Positions 4,903 to 60,189 of a stretch of DNA of 64,000 bases are shown here, in pieces. Origin of the DNA: Owenia fusiformis (lineage: Eukaryota > Annelida > Polychaeta > Sabellida > Oweniidae); contig CAIIXF020000010.1 of assembly GCA_903813345.2 (NCBI GenBank), positions 20,595,181 through 20,659,180 of the forward strand. The letters are read 5' to 3'. Within the stretch, counting starts at the first letter, position 1; every line of letters starts with the position of its first letter. A program made the translations under genes and the position numbers. The notes under the pieces were generated by a model that made no database searches, had not been told where the DNA came from, and saw only the letters and a list, made by a program, of their open reading frames with translations.

Positions 4903-5547
4903 TAGTTAGGGGTCTTAAAACTTGTGGATCTTATATCACAGTACATGTCTTATTCTGATGGCAATGACTCGTGAATATATTTGAATAAAAGTATATGTTA
5001 CATGCAGCAAGGTTTTATTTAATACCTGGGGCTTAGTATGAGTACCCAATGAAACGACATCCTGCTTAACATGGCCCTTATACTAGAGAATAAAGGGCGT
5101 GAGTTTTCAAAGACATTAAGGCACCCTTTCTGCATCATTTTAAATTTGAAAAATGATGATGAAGTTAAAATCTAACTCCAGGATATGAACATCAACACCA
5201 ACTCAAAATATAGCCTTACGCCCATGATACCCCATGTCTCTCTTAAATACAAACAGAATAAACAGGGAAATGTAATTGAAGTTGCAATTGTGTTTTCAGC
5301 TACTCAGTGTCACTCCTCTGGAAATCCGTAGTTTATTGCATGGTACAAGGCCACACGATGCAAAGAAAATTATTGCTTTCGTAGCAGAACAAACAAATTT
5401 TCAATCTTTGTTAAACTGTTTTTTCTGAATGTTTCATGACAAAAACTCACTAAACTATCAAAATTATGCTACATTATCAGGAAAGATTGATTTTATTTTT
5501 ACTTACAAATCACTAACATCTTTATTTTTTGATATATTTACATGAAC
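4903..5547. other. no gene recognised
   Basis: AT-rich sequence with no repeat pairing found in the window. Confidence 0.4.
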
Positions 5548-14242: not shown

Positions 14243-14530
14243 CAACACCCTATGCAGACAAATCGTATAAAACTACATTCGCATGATGAGAAACTCGACA
14301 TTGAGTAGGAAACCAGTAACATTTTGTCACCCATCCATGTAACAAATCATTTTTTACTGCTTAATAAATGGTGAATGACAATGAAAATGACAGATCCTTT
14401 TTGATATTTCAAGGTAACTCGTTGGAAATTCGGTGATTGAAATTACGATGTAAAGACAAATCCACAACGGGATATTTAAAAATTTCTTAGAAAAACTATG
14501 AAATATACACTGTACATCTCATATCGAAAT
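14243..14530. repeat. half-copy of the palindromic element at 45332-47655
   Basis: CACCCTATGCAGACAAATCG, then GCTTAATAAATGGTGAATGA, AACTCGTTGGAAAT and TTTTCAAAACAGA are in the order of the left arm at 45340-47060. The two insertions found there are absent here. Confidence 0.7.
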
Positions 14531-14559
14531 TTTCAAAACAGATAGAAGAGGTTTTCAAA

Positions 14560-16498: not shown

Positions 16499-16502
16499 TT
16501 AA

Positions 16503-17306
16503 AGCCCCCGTCTAAAGTTTGAAAATATTTTTTATCATTCATTTACTATTTGTCATGACTCAAAAAGTTATTTTAGAGATTTTTGAAAAATAGCTTTTCA
16601 TTTCTCAAATATTCAAATTTCCCGCCATTTTTCAAAAAAAGTTGACATTTTTTAATCATCAAATATTTCTTAATGCATTTCAAAAAAGATTATCTTTTTA
16701 AAACCAATGCAAAGATTGAACAAAGGACACAGAATTTCAATAATAAAATGCCATATTCAATGGGCCACTTCAATGTTTTAGCATATCAAAAAGATTTTGA
16801 AACATTAGTGATGTCACTAACGTAGCAAAAACCTTTTGAAAAAATTGAATTTTTTTTTTCGATGTCAATCTTTTCTAAATATGCTAGACTTCAATAATAA
16901 ACCAATGTTGATTGTCTAACCAGGTTAAAAGAAAGAATATATTATGTTTTAGATATCATTGTACCATTGGTTTCTATGAGAACTAAAATTTTGATATGCA
17001 TTTTTTTCTCGGAACCATTTTTATGCACTGATAAGTTCATTTTTCGCTTCTTTATGAACCGATTCTCTTATTTTTTCGGCAAAAAACATGCGAGGATGAA
17101 TGCTATGCATTGGTATGAACTGTGGCTAATTAAAAGATATATTTGACCTCTAAAAGTTAGTTTTAGATAAATTCACAAATTTTGGAACAAAAAGTCTATC
17201 AAAAACCACTTTTTGAAATTAAAAAAAAAATTCACATATCACACTTTGATAACATTGGTTTAGACTACAATATAAGCCAAAGTGGTTTAAACTTTATATA
17301 GGGACT
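16503..17306. mobile_element. 804-bp TTAA-target MITE (piggyBac/Kolobok type), copy 1
   Basis: TTAA at 16499-16502 and 17307-17310. The left end is AGCCCCCGTCTAAAGTTTGA and the right end is ...TAAACTTTATATAGGGACT, so the ends are imperfect TIRs AG(C/T)CCC...TAAAGTTT. The interior aligns with copy 2 at 40268 throughout (CCCGCCATTTTTCAAAAAAA, TGGGCCACTTCAATG, AACATGxGAGGATGAATGCT, CCAAAGTGGTTT). No intact ORF. Confidence 0.8.
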
Positions 17307-17310
17307 TTAA

Positions 17311-18392
17311 GGATTTTGTCTATATTTACAGTTTGGCTTATTTTTGTCAAAATAGTAGTAACGCACGTGGGGGAAGTAAGTATGGCCTATATGTTATAGT
17401 TCCTATCTGGAGATGTCTAAAATACAGAATTGAGAGTGAATATGTTAATTGTTCGTGGTTTTCCGCTTGTGCCATCCTGCAATCAAGATTGCCAGTGGGT
17501 CTTTGCCTAAAAAAGAATATGTTTATTTTTCGGGTTTTGCCGTTGCTGCAATCAAGATTATCGCTCAATGTACGGTTATGGGTATGAAGTTGAGGTTTGA
17601 AGAATAAATCAGCTCTATTCGGTGAAGTCGTATTGACATTAATTTGATAAATCAAAAGAGCCACGTAGGTTATCGCAAACAATTTCAGACGGCATATTTG
17701 ATGATGAATATTTTCTGATCATGAAGACAGATCCATTCATTATCTCCCAAGAAAAGTATATATTCATGTATTGTATATCATGTATATGTCATGATAATCA
17801 AGTATTAAAGAGAGAATCAGATCTAGAGAATAAGCTTCAAACAAAAATCTTTTTAAAATATTCTTGGACCAGGTCATTCCATGACATTAACTAAAAATAT
17901 CCAAAATACACACTTTATTTCAGGAAAACTAAAGATTTTTACAATAATGTATCAGTTTTTCTATTCCACATTAAACATTCCCCTCCCCCATTTTTTGCAC
18001 TTTGAATCCTTGATTACTTCACCAATGTATAACTACGGATCTTTTGGGAAATATTGTCATTAATTGAGATTAAATGGAAAAGATTTGTATATCAAATGTA
18101 CACGCTGCTTGCAAAAATGTTGACCTAATTTTCACTGAAAAGTTAACCTTTCATTATAATGTTTAATGCGTATACATGTAATAAGAATGTGCTTTTGGAC
18201 ATGTTTTATTTCCTAAAAGAAACTGGATTGCTCCAGGGACTCTATTTTGAATTTGGAAGTGAGCTGTAACCAATGGATAGCATGAGTTTTCTTTATGGGC
18301 AAATAACATTTGGAACACTAATTTTAAAGCAATTCAGCTTTCCTTTCAAGAACGTACCGAATTTGATACATTTAAACAAAGAATAGTAATTA
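17311..18392. other. no gene recognised
   Basis: At 17460-17580 GCAATCAAGATT occurs twice ~65 bp apart, suggesting a small duplication. The overlapping open frames on both strands have no recognisable product. Confidence 0.4.
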
Positions 18393-27848: not shown

Positions 27849-29061
27849 CACTCCGGAATAACCTGACTACGGTAAAGTCAGATACCGTTGCCACAAATGG
27901 CGGACGTAACTGTCGCTTCAACTGTTTAATCACTTGGTCCGCATTTCATGGGATTCGTCGCTAATTCTGTGTATGCATTGAGCTGTTGTTATAATGTATC
28001 ATATGAAATTCCATTTTCGATCAAATTGGGTCGTGAATCGCTACAATATAGAGTCTTCGATATCGTCAATGACAACGGAATCTGAATTTGAGTAATTTAG
28101 ACACCGGCATATGGTAATTACAGTGTCCGTTGTCCCGTATCTCATTTTGGTCGGTTAAATTAAAGACTTTATTTCGATGGTATATACACCATACAATGGG
28201 GATTAAGACACTTTGATTGATTGTTGTTCCAAAGGAATTTAGTCTAGGTGCTGTATAAACATGCAGTTAATGAAAATCTAATAGACTAGGTGCGAGTAGA
28301 AATAATCTTGATTTACGTCATTAAAAAAATTCAGTCAAACTGATGTCATATTTGGAATCTACATGTAAAATTACATCTAGAAATGAGGTTTTGAAAAGAG
28401 TTTATCAACTTTGAAAATTTAATTTTCTTTAAAAATGTGATTATTTGGTCGGGGAGATTCCCCATTGACCCCATGTTGTAAAATCACAAAAAGTGAAATA
28501 TCTTTTCTTGTGTTGGGCAGATAACTTTTTCCTTTACTGGACATATTTTAATTTGTATAACTATCAGATACATAAGGGTAATATGAAAAGTGAACCACTA
28601 AAACTGATGAATATTCAAGTTTAAGAGAACTTTGTAATACCCTGCCATGTTATTTCCCCCGAATCAGCCACCTGGTGGCGAAACTGGTAACTACCTACTC
28701 GCATCTGAGTAATTGAAACGACGGTACGTTATGTCCGCCATTTGTGACAACGATCAAATTTGGTCGTGAATCGCCACAATATAGCGTCTTCGATATCGTC
28801 AATGACAACGGAATCTGAATTTGAGTAATTTAGAAAGACAACAGCATATGGCAATGACAGGTTAAATTAAAGACTTTATTTGGATGGTAGAACATTATAC
28901 AATGAGTATTAAGATACTTTGATTGATTGTCGTTCCAAAGGAATTTAGTCTAGGTGCTTTATTAAACATACAGTTCATGAGAATCTAATTGAAGCGACGG
29001 TTATGTCCGCCATTTGTGACAACGGTATCTGACTTTACCGTTGTCAGGCTATCCCGGGGTG
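27849..29061. mobile_element. composite CAC...GTG element with 5-bp TSD, internal duplication and nested insertion
   Basis: The left end CACTCCGGAATAACCTGAC pairs with the right end ...GTCAGGCTATCCCGGGGTG, and the TIR continues (GGTAAAGTCAGATACCGTTG, CACAAATGGCGGACG) for ~75 bp. TSD is ATATT at 27844-27848 and 29062-29066. Inside, a ~300-bp segment starting GATCAAATTGGGTCGTGAAT (28018) is repeated from 28755. Only its first copy carries the 427-bp element at 28283-28709. Same family as 37836-38509. Confidence 0.75.
28283..28709. mobile_element. 427-bp repeat-family element, copy 1 (nested)
   Basis: Starts AGACTAGGTGCGAGTAG and ends ...CTACTCGCATCTGAG (imperfect TIR), flanked by TAAT at 28279-28282 and 28710-28713. 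The duplicated sister segment reads GAATCTAATTGAAGCG without it, an empty site. Related copies are at 42378 and 58586. A TAA/TAAT target is suggestive of PIF/Harbinger but not decisive. Confidence 0.7.
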
Positions 29062-32000: not shown

Positions 32001-32766
32001 TAATTGCAAATTTGAAAAATGGTTAGTCTATCTTATCTTAATTAAAGATCCGATCTGATCACCGAAATTGCTTCATTTTGACTACATAGTATTATTACCG
32101 TTCTGTATACCATTTCCCTTTAAAGCTTTGGCAGTTCCCCATTGGATAGTTTCATGATGCCAGTTTTTTATTAACACAGTGTGGTGTTGTGAAATGTTTG
32201 TGTCGTTTGTTGCTCAATCTTTGGAAGGGCAAAGTAGTCTAAAGTGTGACAAAAGTTTGTATTTAACAATAAGTTTGACAATAATAAACTTATTTTGTTA
32301 TAAATTGTTGCTAAAAACAGCTGCGTTCATGAACAACAATTTGCAATATCAAGGTATAATATTTCACTTCACGTTAATTGGATTGCACTTTATCCTCTAA
32401 AAGATATTTGTATGAAGGAGATGAATTTTAAATATACTTTTCATCAAAAACATCTTTCAAGATGACGTATTTCCCATTGTATACTGGACCGCAGTTAATG
32501 CATTTGATCGGTTCGCTTATTTTATGGTGCAAAACTCTTTCAATGTACTCAAAGTAAGAAATATATCATTGACGTCATTGTAAATACGGGTGTAAATAGA
32601 TTCCATAACTCTTAGATCATTTTCAGATTGGCATGATGATGTAATGTAACTATACCATTGGAGCAGCCGCGATTAAGCAACTTATTAATCAAAATTATAA
32701 AAAAGATACGATAATATAGATGTCGACAACTATATTTTAAACCACGATAAAAGCGCACAACGCAAT
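29067..32766. other. no gene or repeat recognised; upstream of the receptor
   Basis: About 3.7 kb of AT-rich sequence. At ~30924-30955 the string ATAGGCGTAGCCAGGGTGAG with a G-run resembles repeat ends common in marine invertebrates. A receptor promoter or 5' UTR exon could lie here, but I see no TATA/Inr combination or splice pair I would defend. Confidence 0.45.
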
Positions 32767-33465
32767 ATGGTTCTAGAAACAGTCGTGAACGCAAGTGGAT
32801 TGCGGTATTGGAAGGCACATAGACAAAGTGACACCTATTCATCGGACCATAATTGGAGATTTGTCGTAGATGAGGACGAGGTACTTGTAGCAGAGCTGCC
32901 AGAACACATACAACTTTCAAATAAATTAATCAATGGTTTATCAACTGAAACTTTGACATCGGTGTTTTTCCAAGGTAATCTTAGCAAAGATATGGATCTG
33001 CCAAGAGGTATGCCTAATATAGAACCGGGGACAGCGCATCCGATGCCAACCTTCAACATGGTGAGCATTATCAAGACAGTTGTGCTATCGCTCATTTTCA
33101 CCGTATCGGTAATTGGAAACATTTCAACATTGGCTAAAATGATCAAAATACGGCGAAGAAAATCCACCATAAATACGCTTATCTTACATCTGGCGATTGC
33201 TGACCTCATCGTAACATTCTTCTGCATTATTACTGATGCCATTTGGGCGTCAACTGTCGAGTGGTTCGCTGGTAACGTCATGTGTAAAATTATCAAGTTC
33301 ATGCAGGTGTTTGGACTCTATGCCTCGACGTACATGATTGTCATTATTAGCCTGGATCGCTGCATGGCCATCATGGATCCTCTGAGTCGCAACAAGGCCC
33401 CAAAGAGGGTACGGATCATGATCCTGGCTGCCTGGTTTCTCAGTGCCTTATTCAGCCTACCCCAG
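32767..33465 (+). CDS. GnRH/corazonin/AKH-type GPCR, coding exon 1 (N-terminus to TM4)
   Basis: This exon encodes residues 1-233 of a rhodopsin-class neuropeptide receptor that would sit in the plasma membrane and signal through G proteins. The N-terminus of about 96 residues has no obvious signal peptide but has N-glycosylation sequons at N8 (NAS) and N71 (NLS). TM1 (~98-122) carries GN at 117-118. TM2 contains LHLAIADL (D146). C173 at the start of TM3 is the disulphide cysteine. TM3 ends in SLDRC (195-199), so DRC replaces the usual DRY, followed by a PL pair (205-206). TM4 has W223 and ends at LPQ. An in-frame stop at 32698 precedes the ATG, which is the first Met in frame. The exon ends CAG|GTGAGC at a codon boundary (phase 0) and joins exon 2 in frame. 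TM2-TM4 resemble protostome GnRH, corazonin and AKH receptors. I cannot say which paralogue without a tree. Confidence 0.92.
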
Positions 33466-33712
33466 GTGAGCATTATATTAACCCCCTCCCCTTTTAAAAC
33501 TTTATAATTGAAGTGATCTAGAATAGGCTACGGTAAGGTCAAAAAGGTCATTGACAATCTCAAAATTAACCGACATCATAGTGTGCAGGTGTGGTGTCCT
33601 TTGATTCTACCTTTCCGGACTACTAAGCAGTAGTACGTTGGGCTCTCGTGCAAATGTCAGCTAATTTAATCTTGATGATGGACGATTAATGCATATATTA
33701 CGCACATAACAG

Positions 33713-40263: not shown

Positions 40264-40267
40264 TTAA

Positions 40268-41100
40268 AGTCCCCGTCTAAAGTTTGAAAATATTTTTTTA
40301 TCATTCATTTACTATTTGTCAGGACTTAAAAAGTGATTTTAGAGATTTTTGAACAAAAAAAATTTTTTGAAAAAAAAGTTGTGAGCATTTCATTTCTCAA
40401 ATATTCAAATTTCCCGCCATTTTTCAAAAAAAGTTGAAATTTCTTAATCATCAAATATTTCTTAATGCATTTCAAAAAAGATTATCTTTTTAACACCAAT
40501 GCAAAGGTTGAACAAAGGACACACTATTTCAATAATAAAATGCCATATTTAATGGGCCACTTCAATGTTTTAACATATCAAAAATATTTTGAAACATTAG
40601 TGATGTCACTAAGGTACCAAAAACTTTTTGAAAAAAATTGAAATTTTTTTTTCGAAGTCAATCTTTTCTAAATATGTTAGACTTTCAATAAAAACGAATG
40701 TTGATTGTCTTACCAGGTTAAAAGGAAGAATAAATTATGTTTTAGATATCATTGTACCATTGGTTTCTATGAGAACTAAAATTTTGAAATGCATTTTTCT
40801 CAGAACCATTTTCATGCACTGATAAGTTCATTTCTCGCTTATTTATGAACCGATTTTCTTAATTTTTTCAGCAAAAAACATGGGAGGATGAATGCTATGC
40901 ATTGGTATGAATTGTGGCTAATTAGAAGATATGAGTGACCTCTAAAAGTTGGTTTTAAATAAATTCACAAATTTTGGAACAAAAAGTCTATCAAAAACCA
41001 CTTTTTGAAATTTAAAAAAAAAGTTTCACATATCACACTTTGATAACATTGGGTAAGACTACAATATAAGCCAAAGTGGTTTAAACTTTAGATGGGGCCT
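40268..41100. mobile_element. 833-bp TTAA-target MITE, copy 2
   Basis: TTAA at 40264-40267 and 41101-41104. Left end AGTCCCCGTCTAAAGTTTGA, right end ...TAAACTTTAGATGGGGCCT. It is collinear with the 16503 copy, differing by small indels such as an extra A-rich stretch near 40360. No intact ORF. Confidence 0.8.
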
Positions 41101-41104
41101 TTAA

Positions 41105-42377
41105 GGATTTGACCAAGGGTGTATTTTTTATTTTTAATATAGTTTTTTATATACATTTATTTTGTTTCATAAAAATCTGCCCAAGGGATTTACCCGGAAA
41201 GTGTTTAGGCACATCGAGAAATTTGGAGATTTTCTTAAAATATATTTTGTAACCGGCGTACTTTTTAACTAATTATATCTTTTTGAACATTTTCTCGCCT
41301 TCCACAGATAAAACAATTTTAATAATAATTAGATAACATTAATAAAAAATCAAAATTTGAACTTGTTCACTACGTTCTGGCTAAAAAATGATTTTGATAT
41401 TTACCACCAGAAAATTTGATGATAACCAGTTTGAAGATCAAAGATTAAAAAGATATAATGTGATGGTAACCCACCAGTAAGAAGATCTAAGAAAAAAGAA
41501 AACATAAAAGAGTTTATTGTCTTATCTGATGACTACAACATTTGATAACTTATATTTCATTTTTTCTGATATTATGAGTTCTAAATAATTTATCTTATAC
41601 AGAATAATTCTGTATACCGTATAGAAATTCCTTTTGAAAATACTTCCGAATAATCGCTCTTTGCTGAAATACTCCATAACTTCAAAAAACTCCAAGCGAT
41701 TTGCTTTAAAAACAGAAAACAATACAGCACTATCAATACTCAAGATTCCAACTAATATAAAGATTAGGCTTCTCCAACAGGACATATTTCTGGATTTTCT
41801 AGGGTTTTTGGTTACTACTAACACTATTATACGGCTCGATTCATTAACTATAACCATTCACCTTTCCTCTCTATGGTTTTCACCTGTAATGTGTCACATA
41901 AGAATGGCCATTTCTTCTCATTCAACTAACTATAAAAAGGTTAACTGCACAATACACCCTTATGAAGTTGTAATTCCTGCAACGAAATAGTCGCTACACT
42001 CATAGTGACGGATATAAAGGGAACAGTTAAGCTCTTATTCTTGTAAGATCCTCCTCGTTAGAGGCATTAAACCGACAGCTTTCTGAAATAAAAGAAAATA
42101 CGAGAGATAAAGATGGCAACGTTTTGAAAGACTGGCCTACTTTTGGCTCAAACGATCTGAGGTAACAGGTAATCACTTGTGTAAATGAAAAAACGAAACG
42201 TAATATAATGTAAATCAAAACACATAGACAGTATCAAAATACATACATACATACGTCGGTAGCATCGTATGGCGATGACATCCAAGATACCTCGTGCTAT
42301 AAATATGCAATTAAATGTAACATGAAACAAGAACTCGTATTTACGAGGGGTTATTATTATCATTCAGGCATACCAAT
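41105..42377. other. intronic, no gene recognised
   Basis: Overlapping open frames on both strands at 41520-41990 have no recognisable domain. No repeat partner found. Confidence 0.4.
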
Positions 42378-43630
42378 AGACTAGATGCGATTAGAAATAA
42401 TTTTGATTTACGTCATTAAATATTCAAAATTCAGTCAAAGTGATGTCATATTTGAAAGCTACATGTAAAAGTACTATAGAAATATGGTTACGAAAATTGT
42501 TTATCAACTTTGAAATTTTTTTTTTTCAAATGTGACTTCTAGTTTGGGTTGACTCCCCATAGACCCCACGTATTGGACAGATAACATATTCTTTTACTAG
42601 ACATATTTTTATTTGAATAACTATTAGATACACTCCCCTCCATAAGTTTGGCAACCTTTTTTCCCCCATTGAACTACGTGTTAAAGCCTCTTTACCTTTG
42701 AATTTTTATTTACTTAACCTGCGATGAAAATACTTATACTATTGATGGAAACGTAATTTGACTTTAATTCCAATACCTCCAAATTTTCTCAATTTTTTTC
42801 CTCAATTACAATAGGTCGAAAATTGATGCTAAATTTGATGAATTTTTGAAAATCGACATTTCCATGTTAACCAATGGGAAATGGTAGGTTTGCCGCAAGT
42901 CATATGACAAAATATCCATCCATCCGAGTCCGTGCAAAAAATACGAGTTAGGCAGGCAATTGAATTTGCTAACTTTATTTAACAAAAAATTGATATGTTT
43001 CTTCAGGTTCAACAAAGTTATAGGGCTTTAAAGTCAAAATTGTTTTTCAAAAAACCTCTCCCATTGAAATAACACAGGAGGCGAAAAATTATTTTCAAAA
43101 ATGACTTTGAAGCGCTGTAACTTTAATATTCATCATATAAACTTATCACTTAGTGTTCAAAAAAGTCAGACAATTCAATTTTCTATATAAAAATATTTTT
43201 TTGCTGAATCTTTTACTGAAAAGATATCCTGATTTCTGATTTGCCCCGAACCCTCCATTTCCCATTGGATTACATGGGAATGACGATTTTCAAAAATTCA
43301 TCAAATTTATCATCAATTTTCGACCTATTGAAATTGAGGAAAAAAATTGAGAAAATTTGGAGGTATTGGAAATAAAGTCAAGTTACGTTTCCATCAATAT
43401 TATAAGTTATTTTATCGCCGGTGAAGTAAACAAAAATTCAAACGTAAAGAGGCTTTAACACGTAGTTCAATGGGGAAAAAAGGTTGCCAAACTTATGGAG
43501 GGGAGTGTACATAAGGGTTATACGAAAATCAAACCACTAAAATAGATGTAATTTAAGTTAAAGGGAACTTTCTGCTATACCCGCCATGCTATCTGACCCG
43601 AACGAGCCACCTGGTGGTGAATCTGGTAAA
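42378..43630. mobile_element. repeat-family element, copy 2, interrupted by a TA element
   Basis: Starts AGACTAGATGCGATTAGAAA like copies 28283 and 58586, and continues GTCAAAGTGATGTCATATTT. After the 877-bp insertion (42631-43507) it resumes CATAAGGGTTATACGAAAAT and runs to CCACCTGGTGGTGAATCTGG. The last ~30 bp of the family are missing, so its 3' end is truncated. Confidence 0.75.
42631..43507. mobile_element. 877-bp Tc1/mariner-like MITE, copy 1
   Basis: TIRs of ~250 bp (~90% alike) start CACTCCCCTCCATAAGTTTG, with TA at 42629-42630 and 43508-43509. It reads identical base for base to copy 2. The 69-residue minus-strand frame is the same in both copies but is only part of the TIR/interior and looks non-coding. 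A transposase must be supplied in trans. Confidence 0.85.
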
Positions 43631-44890
43631 AAGAAATGCGATATAGCCCTGGCGTAATAGCTTCATATGAAATCGTTATTTCGAGTGACCGACAGAAGAC
43701 CCTCTCCTAGAATGTCGTACTTATGAAAGCGTCGATCACCTGGAAAAACTGATGGCGTAACGCAAACAATCTTGTATAAAGCGTATTCTTGCAAATTAAC
43801 TGGATGTGTTAGGACAATCCTTTTTGCTTCGTGAAGTGATGAGCATGAAATTTTGAAGTTCATATAGTTTCAGACCAGAACCAACATTAACCAAATTTTG
43901 CCTAGATCATTCTGAAACTCTAACAGTGCATCAGAACATCCCCCAAACTCTGTATTATAAAAAAAACAATGAAAAAGTCTTGACACTTATTGAACGCCTT
44001 GTAACTTTCAACCGTCAACGCCTTGAATTTTTTATGTCGGATAATCCTACTTACAATTTGGAATAAAATCTTGTTCTGAGTAATAGAATTCCTCATTTTC
44101 TTATAAGATCAATACGTTGTTGATTGCTCATCACCATTAATGTTTTGTAAAGTATCTCTAGAAAGTTTAATACAATTGGCATGAGCATGAAATCCTTAGT
44201 AAATCCCAGATCATTGTTCGCTAGATTATACGCACGATAATCTTGTTCGACCAACTCTCATTGTAACATAGAAATAGTCAATGACACGGCATTTATGATA
44301 GCAACTATATATCTAATAAACCTGGCAAGGTTAATGAATTCCCATGTCTGTCTTACACTGACTGGACGTAGGTTTCTTTGAACACAGTCCGTAAGAATAG
44401 TCTATTTACCAAAGGATTGTATTTTTCCATTAGGAGATGTAATGAAGTTATATCCTGTACACTTGAATAGAGCTTATGATAGGATTGACCGTATAGCATG
44501 ATGAGAATTAAAATAGATTGCTCTGAAACTGGAATGACATATGTGTCATATAGATTCACATTTGTGGCAATATAAGATAATAATCCCAGTGTTATTTGAT
44601 ACTATTTGACAGTCCACATGATGCTGGAAAATATTCTGGTACTCTACGCAAGAGCACAACTGCGTAGCGCACTATAGCTTCTCTTGAAAGCCCATGGTAT
44701 AACACGGTCAACTACTTAATAAAAGGCGGAATTGCACAATCAAAAGAAACTTTTAAACTGAAAAAACTATTGGGCGCCAAATACCATGGTACGATGTCGA
44801 TTATCGGTTTTACTCAAGCAAGCGCTATTAGAAGTCTTTAAGATAATCGGGAATGCTGTCATAAACATATGCCTTGTTATTTAATGTATA
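43631..44890. other. intronic, no gene recognised
   Basis: Nothing identified. Confidence 0.4.
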
Positions 44891-44977
44891 CAGGGTGGTA
44901 AAAAAGTATAACTTTATAGACTTATGCATCATATACGTATATGGCCTATATAGCAAACTTACATAGTGAACACCCTG
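44891..44977. mobile_element. 87-bp mini-MITE, CAGGGTG ends, TA target
   Basis: Left end CAGGGTGGTA, right end GAACACCCTG, with TA at 44889-44890 and 44978-44979. The core around ATATACGTATAT is itself palindromic. Confidence 0.65.
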
Positions 44978-45492
44978 TATAGATGAACTTAAGCTAAGCA
45001 AATTAGAAATGAATATCAGCATACATTGAATGGGATCGGATAACACACTCTTAATAATTAGATTATATCTGTTAAATGGACAATCCATTAGTTTCAAACG
45101 GACAACATCTGATCCAAACAACGCCTCAAAGTACTTGAAACAAAACATTTTCAACAATGGTAATCAGAAAATACAGCTTTGTTTTAATTGTTATGTCCCC
45201 TATAACCTTGCCTTCTGTCTTGATAAAATGAGATTTGGCGCTGTTCATTGGGTCTACTTGTATATGCTAAAGTGATTTGAACTGAAACAGGAATTGCAAA
45301 TAATGGAATTTGAATCGCACACAAGTTCCCAGGATCCACCCCATGCAGACAGATCGCCTAAAATTACATTCGTATGATGTGAGACTCGACATTTACCAGG
45401 AAAATAGAAACATTTTGTCACCTATGACGCAAATTGATTTTTTACTGCTTAATAAATGATGAATGACAGTAAGTTCTATAAGTATGAGAATA

Positions 45493-46369
45493 CACTCCCC
45501 TCCATAAGTTTGGCAACCTTTTTTCCCCCATTGAACTACGTGTTAAAGCCTCTTTACCTTTGAATTTTTATTTACTTAACCTGCGATGAAAATACTTATA
45601 CTATTGATGGAAACGTAATTTGACTTTAATTCCAATACCTCCAAATTTTCTCAATTTTTTTCCTCAATTACAATAGGTCGAAAATTGATGCTAAATTTGA
45701 TGAATTTTTGAAAATCGACATTTCCATGTTAACCAATGGGAAATGGTAGGTTTGCCGCAAGTCATATGACAAAATATCCATCCATCCGAGTCCGTGCAAA
45801 AAATACGAGTTAGGCAGGCAATTGAATTTGCTAACTTTATTTAACAAAAAATTGATATGTTTCTTCAGGTTCAACAAAGTTATAGGGCTTTAAAGTCAAA
45901 ATTGTTTTTCAAAAAACCTCTCCCATTGAAATAACACAGGAGGCGAAAAATTATTTTCAAAAATGACTTTGAAGCGCTGTAACTTTAATATTCATCATAT
46001 AAACTTATCACTTAGTGTTCAAAAAAGTCAGACAATTCAATTTTCTATATAAAAATATTTTTTTGCTGAATCTTTTACTGAAAAGATATCCTGATTTCTG
46101 ATTTGCCCCGAACCCTCCATTTCCCATTGGATTACATGGGAATGACGATTTTCAAAAATTCATCAAATTTATCATCAATTTTCGACCTATTGAAATTGAG
46201 GAAAAAAATTGAGAAAATTTGGAGGTATTGGAAATAAAGTCAAGTTACGTTTCCATCAATATTATAAGTTATTTTATCGCCGGTGAAGTAAACAAAAATT
46301 CAAACGTAAAGAGGCTTTAACACGTAGTTCAATGGGGAAAAAAGGTTGCCAAACTTATGGAGGGGAGTG
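45493..46369. mobile_element. 877-bp Tc1/mariner-like MITE, copy 2
   Basis: Same sequence, length and orientation as copy 1, exactly 2862 bp downstream. TA at 45491-45492 and 46370-46371. It is inserted in the left arm of the palindromic element; the matching site in the right arm (~47490) is empty. Confidence 0.88.
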
Positions 46370-46442
46370 TAGCATGCCGTCTTGATAGTTGAAGGAAACT
46401 CGTTTGAAAAATGATGACGGTGATTGAAATGACGATGCAAAT

Positions 46443-46971
46443 ACAGGTTGTCAAAAACAATAGCACCCCCTCTACAGCAAAAAGTCCTTAATGTTACATA
46501 TCTTGTCATACTTCATTTGAGAGATAATTTAATTCTGGAGTTACTCATCAAATGTCATTTAATAAAACTATATATTAAAAAAGCTACATTGTTTCAAAAT
46601 TTCCTACTCCGGTCCTTTGTTTGCTGCTCTGTTATTAGTTAGGTCAAATCTTCAGAAAGTGGAATATGAAAGAATTCAACTGCACTGAACATATGGGTTC
46701 AGTTCTGAAAAACAAGGTATAGGAATTGATGGAGAAAGAGCCTCTTGGAAAAAGATACAGTAAGGATGTAATTCTGAAGAATGTGAGGAAAGTGCTAAGA
46801 GGATTATGCAATGCTACACCTTTATCTGAGATTTTATTGAAATCTTTTATAGAGCTGAAATATCTCCGGTACTCCAAAATTAAATTGTCTTTAAAATGAG
46901 ATATGACACACCATGTTACATTAAGTACTTTTTGTTGTAGAGGGGGGTGCTGTTGTTTTTTGAAATCCTGT
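46443..46971. mobile_element. ~530-bp MITE with CAGG...CCTG ends (nested)
   Basis: The left CAGGTTGTCAAAAACAATAG and right ...GAAATCCTG pair through GCACCCCCTCTACA and CAAAAAGT to an inner CATATCTTGTCATA-type region, ~90 bp of TIR. It interrupts the left arm of the palindrome; the right arm reads straight through near 47410-47425. The TSD is not clear, so the superfamily is open. Confidence 0.6.
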
Positions 46972-47655
46972 TTAAAACCGCAACGAAATATTTGTAGATT
47001 TCTTTGAAAAACTAAGAAATAATACATCTCATATTGAATTTTTCAAAACAGAAAAACATGTATAAATAGTAAAGCATGTAGGTCCGATTCCCCCTCGTAG
47101 CATTAACATTGGTCTCGTATAAGTCATACTATTTAAATTTGAAACTCTACTATTATTCAAAATTATGATCGGACATACGTATGTTGTGTACTTCAATGTA
47201 ATATTAATAAAGTAACATCATTCTTATGTCCGATCATTCGAATGATAGGTGTATTTCAAATATTAATTGTACGACATGTATGAGACCAATAATGTAAACA
47301 CTATCAGGGGGAATCTTACATTTTAAGCATGTCTTTTTCTGTTTTGAAAAATTCGAAATGTGATGTATATTTTTTAGTTTTTCAAAGAAATCTACAAATA
47401 TTCCATTACGGTTTTATCTTTACATTGTAATTTCGATCACCGCCATCACTTTTCGAACGAGTTACCTTGAAATATGAAGACGTCATACTATTTTAATACT
47501 TATAGAACTCAATGTAACTGGCCTTGACCATTTATTAAGCAGTAAAAAATTAATTTGCTCCATGGGTGAGAAAATGTTTCTATTTTCCTGGTGAATGTCG
47601 AGTCTCGCATCATACGAATGTAATTTTAGGCGATCTGTCTGCATGGGGTGAGGAT

Positions 47656-49298: not shown

Positions 49299-52200
49299 AT
49301 GCGCCAAATCGCTTCCAAAGTGGCTTAGTTAGTCTAAACCGATGTTGAGGTAGATTACTAAGAAGTGGCCCATAGTCATTAAAGATTGGTTCATTGACTT
49401 TTCATTTTCACTTGTCTGCAGTTAATTAGGTGACACGAAAGGGCCAAACGGCTTGCTCCAAGGTGCAACCGTCAAAAATATGAGTTTGAAAAAAATCATG
49501 TTTTTCAAATAATAGCAGTGAGTATAAGAAATAGGAGGCATATTTGATATTGATATGTATGATAGTCTATTTGGGTGTGGTCATTTTTATTAAAAATAAT
49601 AATGGTGAAGAATTATACATTACTGACCTTGAAATGCCATTTTAATTCAAAAATCACTGTTGCTAATGATAATATTCCTATTTTACTTAATTAATGTTTT
49701 CTAGATGTTTCAATTACCATTATGTTAGTTTTTGGCAAAGTAAATAATTGTAGGGGTCACACAAGGATCAACTTTATTTACAACTTTTTCATATTTAGTG
49801 ATGATTTCAAAAAATACCAAGTTTAAGACAATTTTGTTTGTTAAATATTAAATAAAATGATGGTATTGTGTTTGTTTCATTGTTTCAACTAAAAATCGCA
49901 GTTCATTGCTCTTGCTCTTAGAGTTGCAGGGCATATACCAGTTCAAAAAGTCTTCAATAAAGTTGATCCTTGTGTGAGCCCTATGATTATTTACTTTGCC
50001 TAAATTGAATATACCGATTATTCAGATATTATATAAAAATCCTTTAATAGGTTAAATAGTAATACAATGATTGACTTTTGAATAAAAAGGCATTATACAT
50101 GTACATCCCTATGTAGTTGTTGCAGTAAAATTACCACACCAAAGTGGACTATCTCTCAATATTAATATCAAATGGGCCTTCTATTTGCATTTTACTGAAA
50201 TTATTTGTAACAAAAGTTTATTGTGATAAAGCAGGCAGTGATTTTGATACTTTTTTAGCTTGCAGACAGTGATCTAGTCGAGACAACATCTTGTAGTAAT
50301 GGGTGTAACAGTGATGAGGCAGGAATTGATTTTATAAATGCAACTTTTGACAATTCCATTATTGATGGTTTATCTAACAGTTAGCCATTTTGTCCAACAT
50401 TCTGCTCGGACGCCAAATTAAAAGATACTGATTTGCATCACATCAAGTTTGATTTGGTCACCGATGTTTGTCAGAGTGATACCTGTAGCAGCTGCACTCG
50501 ACTGATATGCAGCAAGATATACGTGAGCTTTCATTGCAACATTTGCATTTAGAACAGTTACAATTTTACTTAGTCTGATAGATAATTAAATAATTGAAGT
50601 ATATTTCTTTGAGTTTATTCAATTTGAACATTACTTTTACAATACAGATACCTTCGTTTTGAAACATTAGCAGCAAACGGTCAGTTTTCAACTTTGAATG
50701 ATTCATTTTTGTTCATAAAAAGTGTATTCTACAAAAGTCAAGGTCATTTCAAGGTAAAATGTCAATATTTAGGTAGTTGGCTTTTTAAGACACCTGACCC
50801 TCCACAACCAATGATTAGGTGACCTGAAGTCAAGGTCTGAATAGATCAAGGTAATTTTAAGGTCAATATCTAGCAAGTTGACATGAGAACAATTGTGACC
50901 TTTGGCGACCAATGATAAGGTGATTTCAAGGTAATTTCAAGGTGAAGGGTCAGTATCTAGGTCATAGGTAGTTGGCTACTGTGGCTACTGTGGGTCTTCA
51001 GTAACATTTGATCACCAAAGATAAAGTGACCTACGGTCAATGTAACTGTTTATGGCTCAAGGTCATCTCAAGGTCAGAGGTCAATATCTGAATATTTGGC
51101 ATTTTGGGGATGCTGCCTCATGTGAGGACCCATTGATATGTGTTCTGAGGTCAAGGTCATTCATACAAGGTCAAAATCTCTGTATTTGGCGTTTTGAGGC
51201 CATGGGGGCTGCTATGACCCTTGGCAACTCATGCTAAGGTATATATTGTTCAAAATTATAATAAGGTCAAAGGTCAATATCTAGGTAGTTGGCTCATTTG
51301 AGGCTACACCGACATTTGATCACCAATGACACAGTGACCTGAGATCAGTGTCATTGTTATAGGTCAGGGTCAAAGATCAACATCTAAATATTTGGCGTTT
51401 TGGGGCGGCTGCTGCACTTGATTCCATTGAAACGTGACCTAGGGTCAAGGTCATTCTAAGGTCAAATTTCAACATCCTAGTGTTTGGCGTTTTAAGGCTG
51501 CTGTCGTGATGATAAGGTGACATGAGGCAGTCATCATTTAATGGTTCAATTCAAGATCGTCTCAAGAAGGTCAATATCTAGGTATTGGTGTTTCAAGGCA
51601 CTCGTGGGAAGCTGTGACGCTTGGTGACACATTACAATGGTGACACATTTCAATTGACATTTCAAAAGTAATAGTCGATCATTTCTGTTTTATCATGTCA
51701 ATTTTAATAAAATTTGCCAATTTAAAGTAAAATTATAACAGAAGAGAGGTTATCCAAATATGAGGTCATATTAATGACTGCACTCAGTAATGTTCAGTCA
51801 AGCTGACGAAGTTTTTCATGAAATAGTTACTTTCTGTTGTAGTTCTAAATTGAATAAGTATAAGCAGGTGCGTTTTCAAAAATGCAAATTTAAAGCAAAT
51901 TTCACAAAATGTAGTTATTGATATGTAGAGATAGTCCATTAGGGTATGGTTACTCTCTTCAAAACAATTATGGTACAAATTTGGTACTTCTGACTATATA
52001 ATGCTTTTTTATTCAAATTTCAATTATATTATTCTTATTTTGACTATCAAATGATTTTCGTATATCCGAATAACCATTATATTAGTTTTTGGCAAAGTAA
52101 ATAATAGTAGGGTTCACACAAGGATCAACTGTATCGAAGATTGGTCATACTGGTATATGCCCAGTCGCTCTAAGATCAAGAGCAATGAATTGTGATTTTT

Positions 52201-52782
52201 CAGTTGAAACAGGGAAGCAAACACATTATCATTATTTTGTTTAACATTTAACAAATAATTTTTTGTTAAACGTAGTAATTTTTCAAAACATCACTAAATA
52301 TGAAAAAGGTGTAAATAAAGTGGATCCTTGTGTGAGCCCCATTATTATTTACTTTGACAAAAATGAATATAATGGTAAGTGTAATATATAGAAAACATTG
52401 AATAGGTAAAATAGGAATATAATTAATAACAACCGTGACTTTTGCATTAAAATGGCATTTTAAGGTCAGAAATGTATAATTCTTCAATATTATTGTTTTT
52501 AATAAAAATGACCACGCCCGAATGGACTATCATACATATCAATATCAAATCTGCCTCCTATTTCATATACTCGCTGCTTTTATTTGAAAAAAAAGATTTT
52601 TGTCAAACTCATCTTTTTGCCGGTTGCACCTTGGGGCAAGCCGTTTAGCCCTTTCGTGTCACTTTTTTGAGTGCAGACAAGTAAAAATGAATAGTCAATG
52701 AACCAATCTATAATGACTATGGGTCGAATCATAGTAACCTACCTCAACATCAGTTAATGGGATTTTCTGGAGTTTTGGCGCA
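49299..52782. mobile_element. 3.5-kb hierarchical foldback: four alternating units around a minisatellite
   Basis: Outer edges GCGCCAAA...GATGTTGAGGTAG (49301) and its complement (52740-52782) open the structure. The arms run inward through GGTGACACGAAAGGGCCAAA (49430) and TTAGCCCTTTCGTGTCAC (52640s). Each arm is itself an inverted pair. ~49500-49860 pairs with ~49880-50240, and ~51850-52230 pairs with ~52240-52620, marked by AGTAAATAAT..TAGGG.TCACAC and AGGATCAACT with their complements. The order is forward-reverse / core / forward-reverse. The core (50740-51660) is the AGGTCA minisatellite. No transposase recognised. Confidence 0.7.
50740..51660. repeat. AGGTCA-rich minisatellite core, ~130-150-bp imperfect units
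   Basis: Units share CAAGGTCATTTCAAGGTCA, GGTCAATATCTAGGTAGTTG, TTGGCGTTTT-(G/A)GGC-GCTGC and a GACATTTGATCACCAATGA-like end. At least six are seen, strongly diverged. Perfect AGGTCA direct repeats occur with 1-nt spacing at 51064-51076 and 51071-51083 type positions and with no spacing near 51148-51159. Confidence 0.7.
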
Positions 52783-53317
52783 CACTAAAAGCAGTGTATG
52801 TGTGGATTTTGTTACAGTCAATAAAACATTATCAAATAATTCAAATCTGCTTATTACATCAACTTAAATCTCGAGCAAAGTATATTCGTTTCAGAGGAGT
52901 GATATCCATAACTAGTTGGATGTTCAATTTTTGGTTTTTATTGTATAGTTATGACAGAGACATATAAATAAAAAGAGGGATGATAGTAATATAACTTTAT
53001 CACCAAAGTCCAACATAAGTCGGGATTGGGAGTTAATTAATTGAAAGTGGAGTACTTCTAGTTTCTCTCCAAGCTACGCTGATTAATCATTATTAAATAC
53101 TGAATATGCTATAAGTCTTTTGTACTTTGGAGTAATTTAATGCATTTTTTTTTATTTCATATTGTGATTTTTACAATTGTGTTATGATTCGATCTTACGA
53201 AAAAAGGCGTACTTGTTGTTTTTTCAAAATTGTAGATTTTTATCTTCAATTTTCTAAATGCTGTTCTTTAAAAATATAATAATATTACTGCTATATAATT
53301 CAATTTATATGTATATA
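52783..53317. other. no gene recognised
   Basis: Nothing identified. Confidence 0.4.
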
Positions 53318-53762
53318 GTAGCCCGGACAGAATTGTTCAAGGGTCACTTTAATATATTTTTTAATTGCACGGGTTAAACGAACTAAAGCTGCTAATCCAC
53401 TACGGAATGGCCAAAAAACGTGAAGTCCTGCGACCTTACCAATATAGTGTGCATACAATGTATGCACTTTAAGAACCGGTATACATACAAGTCAATTTAA
53501 AACAAAATGTATGTTTTTATTAGCGTATACCAGAGCAGCAGTCTAGATGACTTCATAGGCGTATGACATTTTTTAAATATTAAGTTTCATCTGAACATTC
53601 AAACCCACAAAAAATGCCACCATTTTTGAACAAATATGAGACAAAATGGTGAATTATGTATTTGCGTCACTCATACTATGAACGTCTATAATATCAATAG
53701 ATTAAGAGATGTTCCTAAAATATTTTTTGTATGTCAGAATTTTACAATTCTTTCCGGGCTAC
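53318..53762. mobile_element. 445-bp MITE, GTAGCCCGG ends, TA target
   Basis: Left GTAGCCCGGACAGAATTGT, right ...CAATTCTTTCCGGGCTAC, TA at 53316-53317 and 53763-53764. TIR of about 20 bp with one mismatch. No coding capacity. Confidence 0.75.
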
Positions 53763-53764
53763 TA

Positions 53765-54265
53765 TGTAATATAGTACTAGCATATATAGCAATGGTCTGA
53801 CGACAGACTGGACGATATAACAAAAGATTTCCTGAATAATCGTGACATCTCTCTTAATAGATTATGTTATATTAAATAACATGTCCATAACAACAAGATG
53901 AAAATGTGTCATTGATCAGGTGTCAGATTTATATAAGCATCTAATAAAACAACCAATTACATACTTTCATCAAAGTGGACGTTTACCTAGTTACTAATAC
54001 GTACAATGACATCACCGAAGGTTGAAAGGATTCTCCTAAGAGCTTTTCACAAATTACAATTATGACTGTTTGTATAGTATAACAAGCTTAGGCCGCACGA
54101 CACGACAACCAATGGAAACATGTTGCCGTGTGACAACAATGAATTGCTCCCAGAGCGGGTGGGTCCATGTTTGACCCTGTATTTTGGAATCCTTTGGTGG
54201 CTTTTGATATTTTGTAGCGGTTCAGTATTAGACCCATATATCGCAACGACTAACCCTCATTGACC
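53765..54265. other. no gene recognised
   Basis: Nothing identified. Confidence 0.4.
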
Positions 54266-55911
54266 CCTGTTACACAGGCCAGTTGAAATGCTTCGTTACG
54301 AAGCAATTTGACAAAAAGCTTCGTAACGAAGCAATTTTGGGCCAGTGTAACACCTCCGCCTTCGTTAGAAAAGCTTAGTTGATAACGAAGCAATTGAGTA
54401 GAAAATTCAACGAAGGTTAGGTCCCAACGAAGCTTTTTTGGCCTGTGTAACAGGTAGCTTCGTTAGAAAATGCTTAGTTGGCGGTTTGCGCATGCGCGTA
54501 ATAAAGAGCACATTCATCATTTTGTATTAAATGAGAGGAATCGCGAGGAAAGAACATGTTTTTAAGTACGTATTATTATAATGCTACGTTTTGATAAAAT
54601 AATTACATATTTGCGTCACTGATTGACGCTAACTCAAGACCTAAACGCCACGTACAAATGTGATTTACCGTCTTTCGTGGCATTTCATTCGATTCCCTGC
54701 CTTTCCTCGCATTGAGTATGACAAAAAATATTAAATCTAAAAAACGCAGGTTTTACCGTATATGTTTAATTTTTTCTTGCGTCTCGAATATTTATACCTT
54801 GAATGTAATTCTAAAGGTGTTAATACCATGATACTGATACAATTGCTTCCCGGTGAATCACATCAGGGAATTTAGCCGATTTGATTGATTCGAAAATGTC
54901 TCTCTTCAGAAATCGTATTCAACTGATTATCGCCCCATTGCAATACTTGTACTAGTCGTTCTATTATTTCATTCTTCGACGATTTTAAATTGTAATTACG
55001 TTTCAAAACTTCCGTATACAAATAAAGTAAAACCTGCGGACAAGGAACGGTGGCCAAAATTGTTTCTTGTCGACAGATATTTGCCACAGAGAGGCTGCAT
55101 GTTTTAGGCCAGCCCCAAACACTATTGATGTGTCGTAAGACGATGCTTACAACTGATTTTCAAGTTTCTTCCAATTTGCGCCATTTTCGAATTCAACGGA
55201 CAGCTGATGGATTAACATACTAATTTATGTCAAACTCACTCAAATATGCATGGAATATTGGCGAGACGGGTAATATTCATATTAAAATGAATTGATCATG
55301 AAATAGTAGTTAAACCACCAGCCGAACACCGAGATATTTAAGTAATGGCTACACTATTTGAAATATAACTGAGAAGTCCATTTGGAAATTGAACGTTTTT
55401 ATTATACGATATTACAGACTAGTCCTCTGTATAAACCCCAAATCCAATTCCTCCTAGTAATTAACATATGCCTATTTTTATTCCATATGTTTTCCAAAGG
55501 AAATGATAGAAAATGAAAACAATACTTGTAATCGTAATGACAGCTGAAATATATAAAAATCGAAATGATGGGAAAAACGTAATGACATGTGTACGGAATG
55601 ATCACATTCATCTGGTTTTATTTTCCCGAGAATTTTGAACTAGTCCTTTTCTGTGCTGAATTATTAAAATAAACATTAAAAATTAGATTTTTGAGTTTGA
55701 TCAATGGTTTATATCAAAAGAATAAAAATATTAATCATAATAAGTGGGTGGGGCAGATGACTACTGCGCACGCGCAACGAAGCATTTTAAGTGCAGTGTA
55801 ACACCAAATAATTGCTTCGTTAGGGTTGGATAAAGCCAGTGTGGACACAATTTTTTCGCTAACCTTCGTTACAAAAATGCTTCGTTAGACTCAACCCAGC
55901 AGTGTAACAGG
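54266..55911. mobile_element. 1.65-kb DNA-transposon-like element with GCTTCGTTA subterminal motifs
   Basis: Ends CCTGTTACACAGGCC and ...CAGTGTAACAGG. Both subterminal zones carry many GCTTCGTTA/TAACGAAGC motifs, including palindromes GCTTCGTTACGAAGC (54290-54304) and GCTTCGTAACGAAGC (54318-54332), and repeated GTGTAACA words; 54266-54454 is itself bounded by CCTGTTACAC and GTGTAACAGG. Next inward on each side are alternating GC-rich words (TGCGCATGCGCG / GCGCACGCGC). A 71-residue minus-strand frame at 54872-55087 is unrecognised. The TSD is not clear. Confidence 0.6.
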
Positions 55912-56378
55912 TACCATTGTGGAGAGATGTGACGGTGGCCCGTTCTTCACGAGATAGATGGCGTGCAGACCCCATGAGAAATAAGCGAAATGTCAACGCA
56001 TGTTTCATGAATCACAGGTGTATCAAAAGAGTGATTTAATCACGTATTTACTGTAATCCATGTTTGAATGAATTGTTGAGAACTCATTTCAATAATAAAG
56101 ATTCAAATAATATAACTCATTAAACCGGTGTAAAAGGGTAGGAGGTCCTTTCAAATTATGGTCCTACTCTCCATTGATTTATATGGTGACCTAAATACAA
56201 CTCTTTCCCTCATTTTCTTATACACAATCAGGGCCAGTAAGGGCCGTAAAGAAAGGGGACCATAATTTCTTTCACACCGGTATTCTACTATTCTAAATCT
56301 CATAAAAAATTGTTTTTAGAAAAAAATACCGATTTGATTCTTCACCAGTGCGAAAATTGTTTGTTTTTACATCTTTAC
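55912..56378. other. no gene recognised
   Basis: Nothing identified. Confidence 0.4.
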
Positions 56379-56407
56379 AAAGGTTGCCAAACTTATGGAG
56401 GGGAGTG
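56379..56407 (+). mobile_element. detached terminus of the 877-bp TA element
   Basis: AAGGTTGCCAAACTTATGGA followed by GGGGAGTG and TA is the right end of the 42631/45493 element. Homology stops at once on the inner side, so only ~28 bp remain. Confidence 0.75.
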
Positions 56408-56779
56408 TATGTCATACATGTTTCAGGTACAAATATCTTACGAAACGAACTTTTCTTTGTGAATATTGCATTTCAGGGCGCTATATGCGTGGCCTTTTAT
56501 TTTAACTTTTACTACAAATTTTATAAATATAATTATGCTCACTTTGATGAGCGTCGTTTTGAAAATGTTCCTTGTTTAATCGCGTTGCCTTTGTTCTTAT
56601 CAATGTCAAAACACCCTGACATAATATCTATACATATCCTTTATCAATATAGGATGATATATTGCCGACATTGGCATTATGTCTTTTAACTAATAAATGA
56701 TGAAAAAGATTGAAGTCTTAAAAGGTTTTTGTAAGCCATGGATTAACATCGTCCTATTTGGGGTCATTGATTAAAATAA

Positions 56780-57215: not shown

Positions 57216-58585
57216 AGTTTCCAATGTACGATAATTTGTGAAATCAAACATGTCGGCCATATTGTAAAGCACGTCCATCTTTGCACATCTCATTTGCAGC
57301 TGCATTCTTTTCCCGAAAAGTGATTGCTGCAACATTACACAAAAGTTCCGGTCATGGACTGACCTTGATTAAGTACGATAGGCCAATAGCTACCAACTAA
57401 TTATGGACAGTGTCGATTGTTTGAATCTTGAATGTAATACATTAATGATCATTTTGATCGATCGAAAGTGATATTTATTTTGCGTATCATAGCAATCCTC
57501 GAAAGTAAAGGTTATAGTTTTGCCCAAACGTTCTGAATTATTTTTAATTTATTTTTGGAAACATATGCATTTGAAGATAAGGGGGTCTACAGTCTTGAGG
57601 CAAGACTAGATTTATCTCTCAATTGGTCCCAATGCGTTCCTGAAAATTTTCAAAATGGCTTCCGACACCGAGACCTATAATAACGTTAATGACATTTACA
57701 TCTTAACAAACGCTCGAGAAAAATCGAATTTCCCTTTTTGCTCCTTGTCCCGTTTTGCCCAATGCATTATCATTTAAAGCTTGGAAAACAAATTTTGAAT
57801 TAGATTTTCATAAAAGTTTTTTGATTGTGCAAGTTTCGGATCATAAGAATGAATTCGACTTTTGGTGGTTAAATTAGGGGTAGCACTCCTACTTTTAAGT
57901 CCTTCATCATTTCATGCCACTGCAATACTCATTCTCGAAAGGTATGGTCGACAAACTGAGTGATCGACCATCAATAAACATCAACAGAGAAAATGAAATA
58001 AAAACATCAACATCAACTCGAAAGGATTGGTCCAAATACACCTTAAACCCAACACTAGATCTAGTCCTGGTGTATTTTTGATTTATACTTAAAATGCAAA
58101 AGAACGAGTTTCAAATATAATTGATGATAAATCAACACATTTAGAAAAACTAATGCAGGAATTTACATTATCATGCAAACTACAAAAGACATGGCGTTTT
58201 GAAACTCCAAATCGAATCATTTTATCACTGTCTTGAATTCAATAAGGCCGCGGAAATCATTTCCACTTAACCGATATTTACTTAAGATGAAGAAATGAGT
58301 TCGTTAGTGCTTGTTTATTTCCCACGATAAAGTATGGATATGAAGAAAAATGTCCTGATTAGATCAACTGTCGATCTTAAAGCCAAGATCATGGAGGGCA
58401 GTAAACAAAACGCACGTGTCCTATATAAAATAGATGTCTTCAAAATATAATTTCAAGAGTCTCGATTTTGTATTTCTTACACAATATAACACAATCATGG
58501 GAAAATTTCTGAAAAAAGTTTTTCCGAGAAGAAAGACTCATTGTACTTATCCGAACGACACAAATGGAACAATACAAAATACAAT
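57216..58585. other. no gene recognised
   Basis: Nothing identified. Confidence 0.4.
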
Positions 58586-59029
58586 AGAGTAGGTGAGAGT
58601 AAAAATAATCTTGATTTACTTCATTAGAAATTCAGAATTCAGTCAAAGTGATGTCATATTTGAAATCTACATGTAAAACTGCATCTAGAGATGTGGTTTT
58701 GAATAGTTTTATTAACTTTGAAAATTTGATTTTCTTTGAAAATGTGACTTCTAGGTCGGGGAGATTCCCCTTAGACCCCATGTTGTAAAATCACAAAAAG
58801 TGAAGTATCTTTTCTGCTTATGTTGGGCAGATAATACATGTAATATTTTCTTTTCCTGGACATGTTCTAAGTATAACTATCGGATACATATAAGGGTAAT
58901 ATGAAAAGTGAACCACTAAAACTGATGAAAAATCAAGTTTACTTGGGAATTGTGTAATACCCTGCCATGTTATTTCCCCAGAATCAGCCACCTGATGGCG
59001 AAACTGGTAACGACCTACTCACATCTGAG
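58586..59029. mobile_element. 444-bp repeat-family element, copy 3
   Basis: AGAGTAGGTGAGAGTAAAAA at the start and ...GACCTACTCACATCTGAG at the end. Collinear with 28283-28709 (GGGGAGATTCCCC, GTTGTAAAATCACAAAAAGTG, CAGCCACCTGATGGCG) and close to complete. Flanks CAAT / TAAT. Confidence 0.75.
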
Positions 59030-60189
59030 TAATTAAGCGATGGGAGAAATTAATCAATTTATAGGAAGCAAGCGCAGGATCAATTGAACCTGTTGCATTA
59101 CTCTTTCCTTTACACAATTCTCTACTAACGATTCATTGTAAAATTAGGTAGATCGGGATTTATACAGATTAGGAAACATGGAAGAAGTGAAATGAATGAT
59201 ATTTTATCACGCCTAAAACCATCGCATAAACAGGCGTCACCGTACATCGTCAAAGAATACAGTAGTACAGTTTTATGTACGGTGACGAAATTAACAGATT
59301 TAAAGCAAAAACTATGACGAGTGTTATAAAAAATATAATTTGATGAAAACAGATACGATTTCGTGTGTAATGAAAACAGTATTCTCTTAGAAATGTTTTT
59401 AACTTACCAATTACGATAACAGTGTTTCAAGTGCTGCTCGCATTTTTCTGAGCAAATCGGCCCACATAATCGACCCAGGAGAAAAATATTGCTTTTTCAC
59501 ATTTCGTTTGGTTATCATTTTTCCCTGCCATCTGAGAGTATGGGTTATTTTTATTAGAATACAAGTGCGTGATACAGGGGTTGCCATTTTAGTAAAGGGT
59601 GTAAATACGTTTCTGTGCTTGATACAGGGTATAGTTGCAAAGACCCCATCAACATTTTTTTTCAAAAATGTTTTCCTGATTTTCAGTTCCTTCCATTTTT
59701 TTTATAATGTTTTCACATTAATATGTTGCATTTGTAGACAAAGTTAACATACTAAAGAGAAAATATTTTCCTTTTAAGAGTTTATTTGTGTCTCCAAATG
59801 CAACATACTGATGCATAAAACATTTATAAAAATTGAGTAGAAGGGGAAATTTTAAATTCAACGAACATATAGGCCCACTGAGCATTTATTTTGCACAGGG
59901 CCTTTATTAGAAAGAACTCAAAATAAATGCCATTGGCTTTTATTAAGACTAAGAGGGAAATTGAAAACATTTTTCCAAGGGGACAGGCATTTATTAAGAG
60001 GGAAAATAGCTTTCCCAAGCCAGTGGGTGTTTATTTCGAGGCGTATTATCAATCGAAGAGTTGACACATGGCCTTCATATACTCATGCAATAGTATCTAT
60101 CATCTCTGATTGCACACTTCTGTTTTACCTTTCAAGCATTCGATTTGGATTTTGGAATGTCATAAAGCTATGCGGTCAAAAGTAATCTT
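59030..60189. other. no gene; short GTACGGTGACG inverted pair
   Basis: CGTCACCGTACAT (59235) and ATGTACGGTGACG (59275) form a hairpin with a ~40-nt loop. The rest shows nothing. Confidence 0.5.

Follow-up and report, generated by a model that had tools for sequence, protein, structure and literature searches.

Two identical 877-bp elements at TA target sites: a probable non-autonomous DNA transposon with paralogous empty sites

Introduction

Two copies of an 877-bp sequence, each bordered by TA dinucleotides, lie in the same orientation about 2 kb apart (starts separated by 2862 bp) in a 64-kb stretch of DNA. This stretch, analysed as a whole, is referred to below as the window. What kind of element are these copies, how did they reach their present sites, and how recently? 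A TA duplication combined with inverted repeats is the usual signature of Tc1/mariner transposons. TA is also named as the typical target duplication of this superfamily in a passage of PMC4495683, and local hopping is described for its elements in passages of PMC2874221 and PMC3878927. An earlier note on the window had reported the two copies together with sites lacking them. Here, the copies, their flanks, their internal structure and their possible relatives were analysed computationally. Coordinates of the main features are collected in Table 1.

Table 1. Positions and strands of the element copies, their arms, the paralogous sites and the solo end (positions are those of the window).
Feature	Position	Strand	Evidence or remark
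Copy 1 of the 877-bp TA element	42631..43507	+	TA duplicates 42629-42630 and 43508-43509; identity with copy 2, empty-site alignment
Copy 2 of the 877-bp TA element	45493..46369	+	TA duplicates 45491-45492 and 46370-46371; identity with copy 1, empty-site alignment
Left arm of the long inverted repeat of copy 1 (outer 254 bp plus TA)	42629..42884	+	35/36 and 204/219 columns against the reverse complement of the right arm
Right arm of the long inverted repeat of copy 1, inner border approximate	43254..43509	-	Self-complementarity; DNA fold
Paralogue of the copy 1 flank, clean empty site with single TA near 28565	28274..28724	+	Alignment
Second paralogue of the copy 1 flank, site near 58880 with 2 extra bases	58582..59043	+	Alignment
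Right arm of the palindrome whose left arm holds copy 2; counterpart site at the 47489 end, single TA	47489..47650	-	Alignment
Third end of this family, solo; 29 bp identical, then TA at 56408-56409	56379..56407	-	Exact match

Results

Identity of the two copies

Pairwise comparison of copy 1 and copy 2 gave 877/877 identical bases, in agreement with the earlier note, which had read them as the same over the full length and their flanks as different. The longest exact block common to both was 882 bp (42628-43509 and 45490-46371). It is made up of the 877-bp element, two TA dinucleotides and one further A on the left, beyond which there was no exact match. In BLAST, a low-quality extension of about 12 bases was added on the left (99.66% over 894 columns); past this extension, the flanks of the two copies differ as had been claimed.

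Structure of the element

The element is nearly palindromic. Its outer 254 bp are 93-97% self-complementary and its inner part about 61%. In alignment with its own reverse complement, 35/36 columns were identical at positions 1-36, 204/219 at positions 37-254 and 120/195 at positions 255-438. Complementarity of the termini is perfect over 38 nt, TA included. The whole element scored 1042 in self reverse-complement alignment (66 ± 31 in 100 shuffles), and the inner 367 bp alone scored 162 (20 ± 20, largest 70, in 200 shuffles). Since the inner part outscored all 200 shuffles, an inverted duplication may be the origin of the whole body, with divergence stronger in the core than in the arms. Folded as single-strand DNA, the element reached -292.9 kcal/mol (-84.9 ± 5.1 in 20 shuffles).

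The longest stop-to-stop frame touching the element comprises 73 aa, so it cannot encode its own transposase. Terminal inverted repeats, as expected of Tc1/mariner elements, are present. Together with the non-coding body and the target duplication, they make up the set of features by which MITEs are recognised.

Empty sites

For each copy, the element and one TA were removed and the joined flanks were aligned to paralogous repeats; the empty sites are accordingly paralogues within the window, not alleles. The earlier note had named two sites without copy 1, near 28565 and 58880, of which the first stood. Here, the junction (AGATACATAAGGG) was crossed with neither gap nor mismatch, in an alignment with 336/404 aligned positions identical and 58 gap positions, all away from the junction. 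The repeat near 58880 (306/374 aligned positions identical, 65 gap positions) carries 2 additional bases next to the junction (ATACATATAAGG) and is not a clean empty site. These bases may be an excision footprint or slippage in the AT run. For copy 2, the site had been described as intact in the right arm of a palindrome near 47490, and the joined flanks were indeed aligned to the reverse complement of this arm without a gap across the junction. A relative of the copy 2 host repeat at 14246-14542 lacks TA at the corresponding site and is uninformative.

TA is thus found on both sides of both copies and singly in two paralogous empty sites, a target duplicated on insertion as in Tc1/mariner elements. 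The two clean empty sites and the differing flanks demonstrate transposition into TA with TA duplication, and the direct evidence of insertion that the earlier note had seen in this locus was borne out.

The host palindrome of copy 2 (45337-47650) contains an inner inverted repeat (46973-47416), and its diverged relative is the sequence at 14246-14542. It probably represents an older repeat family.

The complete identity of two copies whose starts are only 2862 bp apart is also what would be seen if a single element had been placed a second time by repeat mis-assembly. However, the exact ends of each copy join different flanks, and each flank pair is continuous with an independent paralogue once the element is removed. 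A mis-joined repeat would be unlikely to yield two clean TA junctions, and an assembly artefact is very improbable.

Time since the shared source

Recent movement of at least one copy, as proposed in the earlier note, is well supported by the zero differences over 877 bp. If the rate is taken as 8e-9 to 1e-9 per site per year, values that may not be those of this organism, the 95% upper bound for the time since the shared source would be approximately 0.2-1.7 million years, an estimate that gene conversion would void. Conversion is the formal alternative to recent movement: both insertions could be older and the copies made identical afterwards. Nearby homologous DNA can undergo conversion, and the complete identity is confined to the element. 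Against this, tracts spanning all 877 bp would be required. Moreover, about 7% of the columns at positions 37-254 are mismatched between the two arms of each copy, a divergence that arm-to-arm conversion has not erased. Taken together, such homogenisation of older copies is improbable, and recent movement is preferred.

A solo third end

The terminal 29 bases of the element recur exactly at 56379-56407, followed by TA at 56408-56409, an end that the earlier note had not reported. Besides this solo end, the family is represented in the window by the two complete copies; MITEs typically have a high copy number and a homogeneous size. The 29-mer occurs 5 times, against about 1e-13 occurrences expected in 64 kb of the same base composition. 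The first 11 end bases, with at most 2 mismatches, were found 9 times (3.3 expected). Of these matches, 5 are exact; none of the remaining 4, which lie scattered, could be extended into a good 29-mer match.

The 121 bases adjoining the solo end on its inner side did not match the arms of the 877-bp element better than shuffled sequences did: of 300 base shuffles, 154 and 80 reached the score. The best ungapped 29-mer matches outside the known copies, considered as partners for the solo end, were 19/29 (+) and 18/29 (-), and none adjoins it. When its first 150 bases were aligned locally to positions 50000-56378, only an inner hairpin was returned and no convincing partner end. A heavily decayed partner end is possible. 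Conservation of 29-bp ends beside a differing interior would be expected of the part recognised by a transposase, as judged from this single solo end.

Search for a transposase and for relatives

The window was searched with a single Tc1-clade query, the Sleeping Beauty catalytic segment, and yielded no transposase (best E 0.46). A short motif scan of the window gave 4 matches, none transposase-like. Pfam analysis of the 8 stop-to-stop frames of at least 60 aa in 53000-56400, upstream of the solo end, likewise gave no transposase (best E 0.03, all below curated cut-offs).

The ends were additionally searched in prokaryote and viral collections; these do not comprise animal genomes, and absence from them says little. 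A 26-mer of the end matched 0 stretches in viral contigs, and a 20-mer (CACTCCCCTCCATAAGTTTG) matched 0 prokaryote genome contigs. The 20-mer was present in 10 viral contig stretches, all inside one common sequence, as recognised from the 40 bases before and 50 bases after it. In these, there was no TA directly before the 20-mer and no exact reverse end (12-base probe) within the stretches examined. With a common sequence, no TA and no reverse end, the viral contigs were rejected as transposon relatives and regarded as one coincidence. When the Sleeping Beauty segment was compared to viral contigs, one stretch matched a pattern and none was confirmed.

Other features of the window

The initial portion of a receptor of the rhodopsin family is encoded by the frame at 32701-33507 (Pfam 7tm_1, E 1.8e-24). 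The best match of this frame among solved structures was a chain annotated as a fusion with gonadotropin-releasing hormone receptor (E 7.4e-29), ahead of vasopressin and oxytocin receptors. It is probably an exon of a rhodopsin-family peptide receptor, and because of this frame the window looks like animal DNA.

Several further repeats were seen. The pair 16499-17316 and 40264-41110 is 90.6% identical over 850 columns and has roughly inverted ends like AGTCCCCGTCTAAAGTTT, with TTAA adjoining both ends; matching fragments lie near 2321 and 8926. We take this pair to be possibly a TTAA-target, piggyBac-like non-autonomous family. At 4158-4904, a near-palindrome of 747 bp, 81% identical when aligned with its reverse complement and with the ends TACAGGGTGTT...AACACCCTGTA, is possibly another TA-flanked element. 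A large inverted repeat spans 49337-52755; the agreement between its arms is 84% over 762 columns. In the interval separating copy 1 from copy 2, a short sequence at 44891-44977 with the ends CAGGGTG...CACCCTG is located between TA dinucleotides, as read by eye.

Discussion

Both copies very probably belong to a DNA transposon that is non-autonomous, targets TA and carries long, near-palindromic inverted repeats. It would be mobilised by the transposase of a relative elsewhere, most likely of the Tc1/mariner superfamily. Because no transposase was matched in the window with the one query used, this most likely assignment is drawn from the target and the ends. Membership of another TA-target superfamily, or of an uncharacterised one, is unlikely. 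It would fit the lack of a transposase match in the window with one Tc1-type query, and none of the papers listed for the 7 or 11 outermost bases was a transposon paper; however, the TA duplication and inverted repeats are those usual for Tc1/mariner (passage in PMC4495683).

Under the Tc1/mariner assignment, the element would have been inserted into TA dinucleotides by cut-and-paste, with duplication of TA. An autonomous relative elsewhere in the genome would supply the transposase, a DDE/D enzyme of this superfamily, in trans. Its recognition sites would be the ends, probably about 29 bp at the extreme termini, which the solo end at 56379 has retained as well. Both copies would go back to a common recent source, either by one local hop or by two insertions from one recently amplified source. 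Local hopping would fit two copies in the same orientation 2862 bp apart; two insertions from a third source would fit equally.

A structural counterpart is Submariner_Ps1, a Tc1/mariner MITE of Pandoravirus salinus, which according to passages of PMC4495683 is likewise nearly palindromic and non-coding, with long TIRs and a TA duplication. The evidence given there is of the same kind as here (near-palindrome, TA duplication, paralogous empty site). The likeness is one of structure and not of end sequences: the Submariner_Ps1 consensus has 243 bp and TIRs of about 100 bp, whereas the present element has 877 bp and arms of about 254 bp. Its copies are 8-30% from the consensus, in contrast to the two identical copies described here.

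Plant Stowaway MITEs and the mariner-like elements Ppmar and OsMar share the 2-bp target duplication and have pyrimidine-rich ends, TACTCCCTCCGTCCC compared to TACACTCCCCTCCATAAG here (passages in PMC6696609 and PMC4561436). These are plant elements and the present one is animal, and in those passages the ends are unmatched beyond a CTCC-like run; the resemblance is a lead only. The CTCCCTCCGT-type end of Stowaway was not found, the end here being CACTCCCCTCCATAAGTTTGG as against TACTCCCTCCGTCCC in the TIR-variant table of PMC6696609. Stowaway was rejected, as only the pyrimidine run resembles the Stowaway/Ppmar end TACTCCCTCC given in that source.

The mariner-like MITEs of aphids are non-autonomous Tc1/mariner elements of 349-1165 bp, some of them forming a long-TIR tribe (LTIR), and a full-length relative is known for all but one sublineage (passage in PMC5490172). 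Those of their TIRs that are given in this passage differ from CACTCCCCTCC here. The present element can at most be called MITE-like, because its 877 bp exceed the MITE length of 80-500 bp stated in a passage of PMC2874221, although it falls within the range of the aphid elements, which are called MITEs up to 1165 bp (passage in PMC5490172).

Among the papers listed for the end string CACTCCCCTCC, no title concerned a transposon, and none of those listed for CACTCCCTCC with 'transpos' was about a transposon family by title. CACTCCC combined with mariner and 'terminal inverted' gave no paper, which weighs little on novelty as ends are often given only in figures or in Repbase. The family is perhaps undescribed. 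A more far-reaching proposal is that it is a currently active, undescribed TA family in which the near-palindromic body itself matters: read-through transcripts would fold into a hairpin, its arms about 250 bp long, and so supply a small-RNA pathway that silences the family, and the 29-bp end alone would suffice for mobilisation. This proposal is speculative and unlikely.

As a TA transposon that is non-autonomous and bears long inverted repeats, the element is of an ordinary kind, and the understanding of DNA transposons is unchanged by it. It does provide a clean case: about 28 kb (28274-56407) contain both identical copies, the pre-insertion site of each and a solo end related to them. The 29-bp end can serve as a probe for the autonomous partner, and the family is worth checking for present activity.
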